The notes under the pieces were generated by a model. That model was not told the DNA's origin. It made no database searches and saw nothing but the letters and a program-made list of their open reading frames with translations. From contig SUUQ01000001.1 of NCBI GenBank assembly GCA_015062445.1, positions 124,001-188,000 of the forward strand: a stretch of DNA of 64,000 nucleotides, read 5' to 3'. Position numbers and translations under genes: made by a program. The first letter of the stretch is position 1; each line of letters starts with the position of its first letter. Shown piece by piece: positions 2,117-6,567 of this stretch. This stretch comes from Alphaproteobacteria bacterium (GTDB lineage Bacteria; Pseudomonadota; Alphaproteobacteria; Rs-D84).

Positions 2117-2357
2117 AAAAAAAATTAGACCGCCATGGGATGTTAGGCGGTCGGGGAGTTCTCAAATCAGCGTATTAGTGATTCTGTTGTTTTCGGGTTG
2201 CCCCTGTTGTATGACAAACAGCTCCCCGACTTATTAAGTCAGGGATAAATCACGACACAAAACCACATGAATGACATCGGATGACGATGCCGTCAGTAAT
2301 TTTGCACCGAATACGCTGGGCTTGAGATAGCCCCGAACCCATATCCCTATGGATTCA
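2117..2357 (-). ncRNA. Structured leader RNA or attenuator, candidate riboswitch upstream of the lipoprotein/Slam pair
   Basis: A stretch of about 240 bases runs from a good promoter to an intrinsic terminator just before the ribosome site at 713-2101. Long-range helices on the minus strand pair 2331-2340 with 2149-2158 (P1), 2322-2327 with 2160-2165 (P2), 2310-2317 with 2169-2176 (P3, eight perfect pairs) and 2248-2253 with 2178-2183 (P4). Inside P4 are hairpins at 2224-2244, 2204-2221 and a GGG-GCAA-CCC hairpin at 2194-2203; another lies at 2273-2291. The 3' strand of P1 overlaps the 5' arm of the terminator, and the 5' strands of P1 and P2 can instead form a local hairpin (2317-2333). This gives two exclusive folds. 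I do not recognise a known aptamer; a free-standing small RNA is the alternative. Confidence 0.65.
2118..2153 (-). terminator. Intrinsic terminator or attenuator hairpin
   Basis: On the minus strand GACCGCC (2147-2153) pairs with GGCGGTC (2128-2134), followed by an AT-rich run with eight T residues. It sits between the leader RNA and the lipoprotein ribosome site, so reading through it would be needed to express the lipoprotein and Slam genes from the upstream promoter. Confidence 0.8.
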
Positions 2358-2363
2358 TTTCAT

Positions 2364-2392
2364 AGTCTATCACTAAAAATCAAAAATCTCAA
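2364..2392 (-). promoter_or_regulatory. Sigma70-type promoter for the leader RNA
   Basis: On the minus strand TTGAGA (2387-2392) and TAGACT (2364-2369) are separated by exactly 17 bases. Transcription would start near 2357. Confidence 0.65.
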
Positions 2393-3091: not shown

Positions 3092-4264
3092 CTACATTTC
3101 AGTTTGCGCACGATGAACCTTACCATCAAAAAGCATACCTTTCATTTCAATGTATTTTTTATAGCATGGGCATTCTTTTACTGCCTCGTATGCTTTGGCG
3201 ATTGCTTTTTCTTTTGTTGGTTCTGCTGTGATTTTAGTTTTTAGTTGTTTGCCTTGGATATGTGTATTTAGGGCTGCACCGTCTAATGTTGGAATATAGT
3301 ATGGCGATGTGTCCGATGATAAACGACCGTTGCCGGTTGATATTTCTTGTTTTAATACCTCTGTTGTATCCAATGGGCTTGCTTGTTTAGTGTCGATTTT
3401 GCAATGTTTGTCGCAACCATCACATGGTGGAACGGATTCTTTTTTATAGTATGGGCATTTTTTTACAATTTTGCGTGCTGTTGCGATTGTTGCATCTTTG
3501 CCGCTTATCATCAAATCCACTTCTTCTTTAAGCCGTTTGCCATTTATATCAAGGTGGATTACTTCGCCATTGACGGTGACTGCATAGTAATGTGTCCCTG
3601 AACGTGACAGCTGGTATTTTGCTGACAGTACGCATTTTTTCATACAACCACGACAGATTGTTTCCTCAGTTTCTTTTTTAACAATTGCTGTGATTTTTTC
3701 TTTGGGGTATTTTTGCTCCAGAACCTCCCTTGCTGCATTCAAAATCATTGATACATCACCATGATTATGATTGCCGTTATAAGCATCCTCAAACCGTGTT
3801 TGCTTGGCATAATTCATTGCCCAGCCGACAATCATTTCTATTTGTTTCAAATTCAGTACAGACAACAGGCACAATAAATCTTGTTTTGTTGGAAAAGATT
3901 CTGTAAGCGAGGCACTGCGCATTTTTCCATTTAATGAAAAGTTCATATAATCACCTACTGGTTTGTTCCAAGGTTCCCGAGTCTGGGTGTATGTGCACAA
4001 ATCTGGACAATGTGGATTCGATATCATATTAACCCCGAACAGAGAATTATCATAAACCACACCAGTTAGAACCTTGTGTTTCCATATTGGACCGGCATAA
4101 TCGGGGCAGATGATTGTTGTTTCTGGGTCTGGTATATATAGATTGTTATTTGGAACTCGTTTGATTGCGTTTTTTATTGCGCCTGCAATCAAATCATCTG
4201 GTGTTTCTGTCCAGTATGGTTTAAAGAAATTTATAACTTCTTGTATTTTATTGCTTTGCGTCAT
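3092..4264 (-). CDS. Two-module CxGCxKxC cysteine protein, function unknown
   Basis: A 390-residue protein with no signal peptide. The first half (about 1-195) has no recognisable domain. Two tandem modules follow: CRGCMKKC (about 203-210) to CPYYKKE (about 270), and CDGCDKHC (about 277-284) to CPCYKKY (about 367). Each has three clustered Cys, a central segment with YY[AI].T..G..[IL] and a Gly-Lys-x-Leu-Lys turn, then a basic helix ending in KxCPxYKK. The pattern suggests a metal-binding or compact disulphide domain, but I know of no such named family. It is flanked by a single-module paralogue and a relic copy. Its leader is shared with that relic. Confidence 0.65.
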   Translation of the reverse strand: MTQSNKIQEVINFFKPYWTETPDDLIAGAIKNAIKRVPNNNLYIPDPETTIICPDYAGPIWKHKVLTGVVYDNSLFGVNMISNPHCPDLCTYTQTREPWNKPVGDYMNFSLNGKMRSASLTESFPTKQDLLCLLSVLNLKQIEMIVGWAMNYAKQTRFEDAYNGNHNHGDVSMILNAAREVLEQKYPKEKITAIVKKETEETICRGCMKKCVLSAKYQLSRSGTHYYAVTVNGEVIHLDINGKRLKEEVDLMISGKDATIATARKIVKKCPYYKKESVPPCDGCDKHCKIDTKQASPLDTTEVLKQEISTGNGRLSSDTSPYYIPTLDGAALNTHIQGKQLKTKITAEPTKEKAIAKAYEAVKECPCYKKYIEMKGMLFDGKVHRAQTEM

Positions 4265-4509
4265 TTTTTTACTCTGTTTTTTCTGAATTTTAGAATTTTT
4301 TATTTTTTGAACATGCGTAATGCTCTTCTTTTAGTAAAGAAAATATCACAAATGTCATATTTGTCAATGCTTTTTTGCAAAATATGGTGTTTGTGTATTT
4401 AATCTGATTAACGCTTATGGACAATTTTACATATTCTAGACATAGAAAATTGGTGTGCTGTGGAAAGTGGCGGTTTTCTGCGGGGTGCGTGTGGCGGCTT
4501 TTTTTATTT
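4265..4509. other. AT-rich intergenic region with remnants of the 36-bp repeat
   Basis: There is no supported gene. The region holds the leader of the 390-residue gene and a diverged copy of the 36-bp repeat (about 4430-4483, with TTTACATATTCTAGACATAG and GTGGCGG). A T-rich run follows and leads into R1 copy b. Confidence 0.5.
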
Positions 4510-4644
4510 GTATTATGACCTGGGGGCTGTGGTTCACACTTCGTTAAAACTTCGTGCGACAAGGCAAGCCACGGGATGACACCACTGTATTAAAACTTTG
4601 TGGTGCAGGCAAAGGGGAAATAAACACCACCCAATCGGGCGGTG
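4510..4644. repeat. R1 palindromic repeat, long form (copy b)
   Basis: The same start (GTATTATGACCTGG) and end (CACCCAATCGGGCGGTG) as the short form, but the central hairpin carries an insertion with TTCACACTTCGTTAAAAC and a second TTAAAACTTTGTGGTGC segment. It is the only R1 copy that does not abut a stop codon, which may mean that the gene once next to it is gone. Confidence 0.75.
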
Positions 4645-4703
4645 TATTGTATTTTGTGTTTATGGTTTTATATTAAATCTGTGTATAAATCACTACAAAA
4701 TTA

Positions 4704-5149: not shown

Positions 5150-5179
5150 CAAAAAATGACCCAACGGGTCATTTTTTTT
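5150..5179 (+). terminator. Terminator after the small lipoprotein gene
   Basis: AAAAAATGACCC-AAC-GGGTCATTTTTTTT forms a short stem followed by a T run. R1 copy c begins at the last T. Confidence 0.8.
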
Positions 5180-5313
5180 GTATTATGACCTGGGGTCCTT
5201 GGTTCACACTTCGTTAAAACTTCGTGCGACAAGGCAAGCCACGGGATGACACCACTGTATTAAAACTTTGTGGTGCGGGCAAAGGGGAAATAAACACCGC
5301 CCATCCGGGCGGT
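5180..5313. repeat. R1 palindromic repeat, long form (copy c)
   Basis: Nearly identical to copy b, including both inner insertions. Its right hairpin (CCGCCCATCCGGGCGG) ends six bases from the stop of the minus-strand gene at 5319. Confidence 0.8.
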
Positions 5314-5318
5314 TGTTT

Positions 5319-6338
5319 TTATAGTGTTTTGCGATCAGTGCGTCTTTTTTGTGTTATCTGTCGTTTTTTTAAATTTCTTGCTGCAATTCCCATACCAATA
5401 ACCGCACCTGTTCCTAGAATAAACGTAGCAGCATTTGATTTATCGCTACTTTCGTTGACATCTTCCAACACATAATCCATAACAACATCTTTAACAAGTT
5501 CACATTCAACCCGTACCCTTTTCCCATTTGCAACTTTCAATGTTATTGTACGTGGTTTTTTTGCTTTTGCTAAATTATTTTCTATTTTAGAAAAATTCCA
5601 TTCACAGAAATTATTTTTATCCTTTTTTATTTTTCCATTTTTATGAACAACGATGTCTTCCAAAAGCAAGTTGTAACAACCTTCACATCGCAAATCAAGC
5701 AAATCTGTTATTTTTATTTTATCTTCCAACAAGGCGGCAAAGAAATAACATCTATTTAAGACACCCTTTTGTTCGCGCCATCCCGTCAGGGTTTTTGACA
5801 ATTCCGCCCCTGTTTTACCAGAATTCAAATACTTTAAATATTTAGATTTTTGAAAATTTGTCCCCCCGATACAATATCTAAACATACAGGTTGCAATCAT
5901 TGTTTTTTCATCCATCGGAACTTTAACATATTTTTCTATATCTTTTAAGATTTCAAACGTCATATATCGTCCCATATATTTATCACGATTTTCAACCGAA
6001 GGAACCTTTGTATTTTTAGTAACTCTTTTATATGTCCCGTCTGCGTTATACAAAACAGTCAAACCACCACCTGTTGTCCAAGCTTTGCCACAAAAATAAA
6101 CATAAGCATAATCATTTTCTACAAAGATCAATGACATTTTAACTTTACTGCGACAGTTTTCGAATAATTCCTTGTTATGTTTTGATGCGCGAGATGTATT
6201 AAATTTTACATTTTCTATTTTATCTCTTTTTTTATCATCTTGGTCATCCTTGTTTTTTACAAACAAATGCGTACCAAACAACAATCCACTAACCAACGCA
6301 CTTCCAATCAAGAATTTTTTTACTTTATTTTTTTGCAT
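5319..6338 (-). CDS. Membrane-anchored GH24-like lysozyme domain protein
   Basis: A 339-residue protein from the ATG at 6338, chosen because an N-terminal hydrophobic anchor (FLIGSALVSGLLFGTHLFV) follows; the longer reading starts at a less likely codon. Residues about 70-220 resemble phage-type lysozyme (glycoside hydrolase 24). FVENDYAYVYFC-GKAWTTGGG matches the usual F-E-G...AY...C...WT-I-G-Y-G block, with the candidate catalytic Glu kept; F.Y.IGG.NF and L..LN.G...W resemble the substrate-binding part; KGVLNR matches the RR-containing helix. A second hydrophobic segment (FILGTGAVIGMGIAA) sits near the basic C-terminus. It would act on peptidoglycan if active, but the Thr-Gly-Gly-Gly variant makes activity uncertain. 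There are no phage genes nearby. Confidence 0.55.
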   Translation of the reverse strand: MQKNKVKKFLIGSALVSGLLFGTHLFVKNKDDQDDKKRDKIENVKFNTSRASKHNKELFENCRSKVKMSLIFVENDYAYVYFCGKAWTTGGGLTVLYNADGTYKRVTKNTKVPSVENRDKYMGRYMTFEILKDIEKYVKVPMDEKTMIATCMFRYCIGGTNFQKSKYLKYLNSGKTGAELSKTLTGWREQKGVLNRCYFFAALLEDKIKITDLLDLRCEGCYNLLLEDIVVHKNGKIKKDKNNFCEWNFSKIENNLAKAKKPRTITLKVANGKRVRVECELVKDVVMDYVLEDVNESSDKSNAATFILGTGAVIGMGIAARNLKKRQITQKRRTDRKTL

Positions 6339-6466: not shown

Positions 6467-6502
6467 ATGCGTAAATTACTTGCAGCATTATTTGTATTAT
6501 GA
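6467..6502 (+). pseudogene. 5' remnant of a secreted or lipoprotein gene cut by an R1 repeat
   Basis: After a promoter and a good ribosome site, an ATG starts MRKLLAALFVL and then stops at the TGA inside GTATTATGACC, the first bases of R1 copy d. The peptide is the beginning of a signal sequence. Nothing resembling the rest of the gene lies beyond the repeat, so insertion of R1, or a deletion bounded by it, destroyed the gene. A real 11-residue peptide is the alternative but less likely. Confidence 0.5.
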
Positions 6503-6567
6503 CCTGGGGCCCGTGGTCGGGCCACGGGATGACAAAGTAAATAAAAACACCACCCATCCGGGCGGTG
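6494..6567. repeat. R1 palindromic repeat, short form (copy d)
   Basis: GTATTATGACCTGGGG, the CCCGTGG/CCACGGG hairpin, GATGACAAAGTAAATAAA and a CACCCATCCGGGCGGTG hairpin. The right end lies four bases from the stop of the minus-strand gene at 6572. Confidence 0.8.

Follow-up and report, generated by a model that had tools for sequence, protein, structure and literature searches.

A multiplied chromosomal leader RNA with the C4/sRNA-Xcc1 layout, probably a transcription attenuator, in a gut order of Alphaproteobacteria

C4 RNA blocks translation of an antirepressor and decides the heteroimmunity of phages P1 and P7 (review, PMC12197685). In the annotation of the phage P1 c4 locus, the a1/b1 targets come first, followed by c4 and then by a2/b2 at the icd start. 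In the sequence, a1 lies in a hairpin loop and is followed by b1, a terminator-like hairpin (CCGCA...TGCGGTATTTTTG), and a core composed of a closing stem, P2, P3 with the antisense loop, and an antisense joining strand. In the IsrK-orf45-anrP leader of prophage Gifsy-1, transcripts from a single promoter either terminate early, as a short RNA, or read through into an mRNA that is bistable around an antirepressor cistron, and the short RNA activates translation in trans approximately 140-fold (PMC4825925). The a1/b1 region of phage P1 scores 35.1 bits on the isrK model (cut-off 50). In the Rfam clans, C4 (RF01695) and c4-a1b1 (RF03163) are placed together, whereas sRNA-Xcc1 (RF02221) belongs to none. 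An 88-nt RNA corresponding to the RF02221 core accumulates in Xanthomonas (PMC2996969), where the type is also located in integron cassettes beside symE (PMC12444791). In Escherichia coli O157 the core RNA is abundant and barely translated, with 40,293 RNA reads against 290 reads from ribosomes (PMC5331693).

The leader in the window and its alternative pairings

The leader examined here lies in a 64,000-nucleotide stretch of an alphaproteobacterial genome (contig SUUQ01000001.1, positions 124,001–188,000), hereafter the window. The whole element, comprising promoter, leader, and terminator, is read from the minus strand, from 2392 to 2117 (Table 1). A preliminary description of this region had proposed a structured leader, lying between a 17-spaced promoter and an intrinsic terminator, that controls a surface lipoprotein and its Slam-type exporter. 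Each structural element was located, and the lipoprotein gene follows the leader immediately, with the Slam gene behind it. The eight perfect pairs that it assigned to P3 are those between L3' and L3, its GNRA hairpin is P2a, and the competing local hairpin given as 2317–2333 corresponds to the J' hairpin, GGGGCTATCTCAAGCCC (2334–2318). The reported overlap between the closing helix and the terminator was also found, GACC (2152–2149) being common to the P1 3' strand and the 5' arm of the terminator. Promoter-like sites are frequent by chance; a promoter scoring at least as high as that of the window (9/12) was present upstream of the 5' hairpin in 82 of 124 leader copies, with a mean score of 8.91 in leader copies versus 7.13 in shuffled sequence.

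Table 1. Features of the leader and the downstream genes (window coordinates)
Feature	Position	Strand	Basis
Sigma-70-like promoter: TTGAGA (2392–2387), spacer 17, TAGACT (2369–2364)	2364–2392	−	Sequence match
5' hairpin P0 (TGAATCCATAGGGATATGGGTTC)	2335–2357	−	Local fold; position matches first hairpin of Rfam c4-a1b1
J' hairpin, GGGGC-TATCTCAA-GCCC	2318–2334	−	Fold and own-versus-other pairing tests
J' loop bases TCTCAA, partner of J	2327–2322	−	Own-versus-other pairing tests
L3' strand AGCGTATT, partner of L3	2310–2317	−	Own-versus-other pairing test
Variable spacer hairpin CGGTGCAAAA...TTTTGTGTCG	2253–2309	−	Fold
Anti-P1 segment TCCCTGACTT, partner of P1 5' strand	2236–2245	−	Own-versus-other pairing test
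P1 5' strand AAGTCGGGGAG	2222–2232	−	Covariation
P2 with conserved internal loop (CATACAACA / GAAA) and P2a GNRA hairpin GGGGCAACCC	2184–2221	−	Covariation
P2a GNRA hairpin GGG-GCAA-CCC	2204–2195	−	Sequence
P3 TCA...TGA, enclosing L3 AATACGCT (2176–2169)	2167–2181	−	Covariation (helix 4) and pairing tests
Joining strand J (TTTGAGAA), partner of J' loop	2159–2166	−	Own-versus-other pairing tests
P1 3' strand CTCCCCGACC	2149–2158	−	Covariation
Intrinsic terminator GACCGCC-loop-GGCGGTC-TAA-T8	2152–2117	−	Stable hairpin on folding
Rfam RF02221 (sRNA-Xcc1) match, model 1–87	2141–2231	−	37.7 bits, E 1.2e-4
Gut-family model R1 match	2114–2235	−	101.9 bits; window copy among the 21 R1 building sequences
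Ribosome binding site AAAGGGG, no target of J/L3	2108–2114	−	Sequence; gut-family pairing test negative
Putatively regulated gene: 462-aa lipoprotein (signal MKKYVILTSVLALAAC), ATG at 2101	713–2101	−	No Pfam match
Slam-type exporter, continuing past the window edge	3–752	−	PF24575 E 2.3e-9, PF04575 E 7.7e-5

The preliminary description had matched the leader to no known aptamer. The Rfam search relates it to RF02221, whose model it matches over the full length, yet with a score below the gathering cut-off of 53 bits, and by layout it is also comparable to C4. No match to 6S or to another stable RNA was found in Rfam, nor did the C4 model match in the window stretch at E values of up to 10. The motif GTTAGGC in the terminator loop at 2144 is reminiscent of an integron attC site, but inspection by eye revealed neither a second core site to partner it nor the layout of a cassette, and this reading was dropped.

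The leader folds far more stably than its shuffled versions (−99.0 kcal/mol vs −67.8 ± 4.7; z = −6.61). P1 (2230–2222 with 2158–2150) is backed by covariation but missing from the minimum-energy fold, because this fold corresponds to the terminated state, in which the anti-P1 segment holds the P1 5' strand and the terminator shares the 3' strand. The predicted energy of the P1 state is −81.8 kcal/mol, a figure calculated without pseudoknots. Given the much greater stability of the terminated state in silico, an unaided change to P1 is not obvious.

Among 74 relatives, 95.9% of the cells at 20 core pairs were paired, falling to 34–56% when the partners were slid, and two-sided changes occurred in 18 of the 20 pairs, including all pairs of P2 and P2a. 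Cells with two-sided changes numbered 166, versus 33.6 in shuffles (0 of 500 reached the observed value). The alignment behind these counts (A2) was fitted to the model, and the sequences used to build the model are among those aligned; the later tests use strands that are outside, or unpaired in, the model. Because MAFFT displaces P2, RNAalifold run on a MAFFT alignment by itself pairs P2 and P3 incorrectly.

The strands J and L3 pair in a fixed order with the loop of an upstream hairpin (J') and with the strand behind it (L3'). When J and L3 from 133 distinct copies were compared with upstream regions, the score was 35.0 for the copy's own region and 25.5 for those of other copies, and none of 2000 permutations reached the own-region score; the test is conservative because related copies are included. 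The own partner ranked in the top 5% for 87% of the copies, and approximately 13% did not follow this pattern. Within single genomes, the own partner was the best in 18 of 22, 20 of 28, and 27 of 37 copies. When J and L3 were compared with the region before the ATG in the gut family, no signal was detected (728 of 2000 permutations), and 3% of the copies had their own partner in the top 5%.

The sharing of strands between P1 and the terminator also recurs. In 121 of 135 copies, at least 3 nt of the P1 3' strand are part of a hairpin followed by a T-run, and the shared bases change together on all three strands. The anti-P1 segment matches the P1 5' strand of its own copy better than those of others (18.0 vs 14.8; 0 of 2000 permutations). 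The spacer hairpin differs in length from copy to copy. With the core covarying and the long-range, P1/terminator, and anti-P1 pairings recurring in 130–135 distinct copies, the features read in the window are not due to chance.

Distribution of the family and the genes that it precedes

A covariance model built from 21 aligned cores, including the window copy (model R1), had matches in 187 of the 201 genomes of the window's order, in 121 of the 126 near-complete genomes, and in 20 of the 23 genera. The matches listed, with 18 candidates scored per genome, sum to at least 1,454 copies in the order, and the four fully scored genomes contain 22 (the window's own), 28, 50, and 6 copies. In a sample of the class nearly devoid of this order, R1 matched in 28 of 289 genomes, so the expansion is a feature of the order. 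With the RF02221 model, matches were obtained in 21 of 40 relatives, only one of which has a copy above the cut-off, and the 14 control genomes gave none. A true RF02221-type copy (57.8 bits; G020 contig 7, 80229–80314) precedes a Rha-like gene in the same genus, and the phage and chromosomal types thus meet in one lineage. A shorter subtype of 100–108 nt (e.g., L044, L250, and L252) lacks P2a but keeps a GAATATAAAGAATAA-like loop; it scores 28–47 bits with R1, deserves a model of its own, and in many cases precedes small HTH regulators or short TKCVKL..STTC secreted proteins.

The start codon lies 0–30 nt behind the model end in 116 of 135 copies (86%), compared with 12.6% for random positions. 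The downstream genes are unrelated to one another; their products include many short cysteine-rich secreted proteins, as well as lipoproteins, beta-barrel proteins, autotransporters, PLD-type nucleases, small HTH regulators, glycosyltransferases (Stealth and others), a ThyX, and a methylase. By a crude N-terminal rule, 72% of the downstream genes begin with a signal or membrane segment, versus 31% of the window ORFs (P = 3e-7). The RNA has apparently been reused to attenuate the transcription of many proteins, mostly surface or secreted. The idea that the leader is specific to the lipoprotein/Slam pair does not hold, since the same RNA precedes dozens of unrelated genes, and no counterpart of this lipoprotein or Slam gene occurs beside any other leader (approximately 160 loci, overlapping pieces of the region itself excepted). 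In the same genome, a second leader with 92% identity over 281 nt stands before another gene, which encodes a different, short lipoprotein.

The high copy number, the 92% identity of these two copies, and the integron cassettes that carry the RF02221 type in Xanthomonas could all be explained by a mobile or repeated DNA element, such as a MITE or an attC-like site, that carries a promoter and a terminator by chance. We regard this as highly improbable, because it is the structure and not the sequence that is common to most copies, their orientation is constant, the start codon follows within 0–30 nt in 86%, and compensatory changes are present.

Tandem, near-identical leader copies approximately 515 nt apart were observed in another genome (G014 contig 4, 172–780), which suggests a recent duplication of a leader together with its gene. 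Several repeats were also observed between the genes of the window. A palindromic intergenic repeat, CCCGTGG...CCACGGGATGACA, occurs at 2505–2563 and 6488–6546 with 98% identity, and hairpins of a ACACCGCCC...GGGCGGTG family are found at 2561, 4622, 5292, and 6545. A 166-nt direct repeat (4495–4660 and 5165–5330; 89% identical) flanks a small lipoprotein-like gene, and the neighboring minus-strand ORFs at 2588–2995 and 3092–4264 have repeated cysteine motifs (CRGCDKNC and similar) with internal duplication. Two more leader copies lie just beyond the window, L208 (G000 contig 9, 121512–121622) and L038 (189797–189889); one precedes a gene for a cysteine-rich signal-peptide protein, and the other precedes an FtsK-like gene by approximately 100 nt or more.

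A putative attenuation mechanism

We propose that the leader is probably a cis-acting transcription attenuator built on an RNA scaffold of the C4/sRNA-Xcc1 type. It has the layout of an attenuator, in that the 5' arm of an intrinsic terminator in front of a gene is common to an alternative helix. Transcription would start near 2357 and first yield the J' hairpin, the L3' strand, and the anti-P1 segment, followed by the core (P1, P2, P3/L3, and J), and the J–J' and L3–L3' pairings may fasten the 5' domain to the core. In the OFF state, the P1 5' strand would be held in the anti-P1 hairpin, leaving the P1 3' strand free for the terminator, and transcription would stop before the gene. In the ON state, P1 would take the GACC of the terminator 5' arm and transcription would continue. 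We infer the direction of regulation, namely that P1 acts as the antiterminator in vivo and that the terminated state is the default. The choice between the states may depend on a factor that acts either on J/L3 or on the conserved internal loop of P2.

The strong preference for the terminated fold in silico would also be expected of a constitutive, stable leader with an ordinary terminator, in which the RNA merely protects or tunes the mRNA and regulates nothing. This is improbable, because the mutually exclusive strands conserved on both sides of P1 would be useless in a passive leader. In principle, a strand shared with the terminator could also serve to save sequence and not to switch.

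The unpaired bases of the P2 internal loop (UAUACAAYA / GAAA) are invariant across divergent copies. The loop is kept in the gut and RF02221 types and absent from C4, which has a plain P2 stem with a UUCG loop, and this makes it the best candidate for a sensor. Such invariance would suit a metabolite riboswitch in which the loop binds a small molecule, stabilizes P1, and thereby opposes the terminator, and the dispersed, multi-copy use of the leader before many genes would suit a global signal. The c-di-GMP riboswitches are an example of a global signal read before many genes. Nevertheless, we consider a metabolite riboswitch doubtful, because the downstream genes share no common pathway, the phage antirepressor leaders of the same family are not classical riboswitch targets, and the copy-specific J and L3 sequences would not be needed by a plain aptamer. 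The preliminary description had proposed the logic of a transcriptional riboswitch for this locus. The mutually exclusive helices around the intrinsic terminator agree with that proposal, whereas the dedication to one gene pair and the sensing of a scavenged ligand are not supported. Nothing points to heme, a metal, or cobalamin; there was no Rfam riboswitch match at E values of up to 10, and elsewhere the leader is unlinked to the Slam pair. The attenuator that we favor shares with terminating riboswitches and attenuators the exchange of anti-antiterminator, antiterminator, and terminator strands before a gene, but the gut leaders differ from these systems in general in that their targets have no coherence of pathway and their J/L3 pair is copy-specific.

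Phage leaders of the sRNA-Xcc1 type and the origin of the gut leaders

The gut and RF02221 types have the same core order (P1, P2 with its conserved loop and P2a, P3, J, P1), and both carry a J'/L3' mimic on the 5' side. R1 found the RF02221-type core in all eight loci tried in other bacteria, the phage P1 locus aside, with best matches per locus at E values of 2e-10 to 7e-5 where scored; it missed one true RF02221 copy (L119) at E values of up to 10. In named genomes (Pasteurellaceae, Xanthomonas, Desulfovibrionaceae, Neisseria, and Azospirillum, among others), a pattern scan yielded 98 stretches, and in viral contigs it yielded at least 120; some of these matches are due to chance. Six loci that were checked are bona fide RF02221 (67–86 bits). 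The next genes are phage regulators, and PHROGs agree. Among 68 of them, with overlapping assignments, we counted Bro-N (16), P22_AR_C (12), KilA-N (10), SymE (8), P22_AR_N (6), Rha (4), and AntA (3).

In the RF02221 type, L3 is complementary to the Shine–Dalgarno strand (0 of 10000 permutations). J and L3 ranked in the top 5% against the strand before the start codon for 78% of the copies and against the 5' mimic for 47% (0 of 2000 permutations in both cases). The corresponding values for the copies in viral contigs, which belong partly to the same phage groups, were 75% and 52%; both partners were present in 59 of 71 of these copies, and a T-run followed the mimic in 54 of 63. The RF02221 type differs from the gut leaders, which lack the pairing with the Shine–Dalgarno strand, bear the terminator on P1 rather than a terminator-like T-run after the 5' mimic, and are chromosomal, mostly preceding signal-peptide genes instead of antirepressor or SymE genes.

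The Rfam RF02221 model spans only the middle of this layout. sRNA-Xcc1, regarded as a small RNA since 2010 and later as trans-acting and linked to virulence, can be recast as the central part of a cis switch resembling C4, which supplies its missing 5' mimic and a likely target, the Shine–Dalgarno region of its own gene. The RNAs that accumulate in Xanthomonas and E. coli O157 could equally be terminated leaders, processed leaders, or independent small RNAs. They would also suit a trans-acting antisense or immunity RNA, in which the J and L3 strands of the released, terminated leader act on a transcript of the same specificity, much as the C4 of a phage P1 prophage acts against superinfecting phage P1, and the copies are indeed largely orthogonal inside a genome. 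This is unlikely for the gut leaders, because their J and L3 match upstream strands of the same leader and no strand ahead of the start codon. A Hok/Gef gene considered as the E. coli target of the RF02221-type RNA was discarded, the coordinates in the paper being those of another assembly.

The layout of C4 with c4-a1b1 (phages P1 and P7), as read in the phage P1 sequence, equals that of the RF02221 type element for element. Nevertheless, neither the C4 nor the RF02221 model finds the locus of the other, and R1 had no match at the phage P1 locus. Our literature search, whose coverage did not extend to a 2011 RNA Biology paper, found no link between sRNA-Xcc1 and C4. On the strength of the shared layout, the RF02221 type and C4 have the same design and likely a common origin. 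The gut leaders likewise have a1/b1-like partners upstream of the core, with the a1 counterpart in a hairpin loop, but they have no a2/b2 at the ribosome binding site and differ from C4 in their conserved P2 internal loop. The C4 model had no match above its cut-off in 21 relatives, with one sub-threshold match of 22.6 bits; the gut leaders were not assigned to C4, and their link to it therefore rests on layout. Control by the IsrK leader is translational with activation in trans, unlike the attenuation proposed for the gut leaders.

The gut leader is probably a chromosomal, multiplied relative of a phage leader whose J and L3 act antisense on the Shine–Dalgarno region. The gut leaders look like a C4-like switch that was expanded on the chromosome, lost its Shine–Dalgarno target, and acquired a terminator that competes with P1, and the direction of transfer was presumably from phage to chromosome. 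The scaffold would then have acquired a second output, transcription termination, and been multiplied to 6–50 copies in genomes of approximately 1 Mb. We tentatively suggest that this order made a phage immunity-type switch its main riboregulatory system, in which up to 50 orthogonal cis attenuators per genome might set the surface and secreted proteome in response to a single ligand or protein signal through the P2 loop. As the pairing strands are copy-specific, the approximately 1,450 copies constitute a data set on the specificity of RNA switches and on changes of output. In four RF02221-type loci (L134, L180, L177, and L200), the loop of the hairpin behind P1 bears a third J-complementary copy, a possible extra state of the switch.
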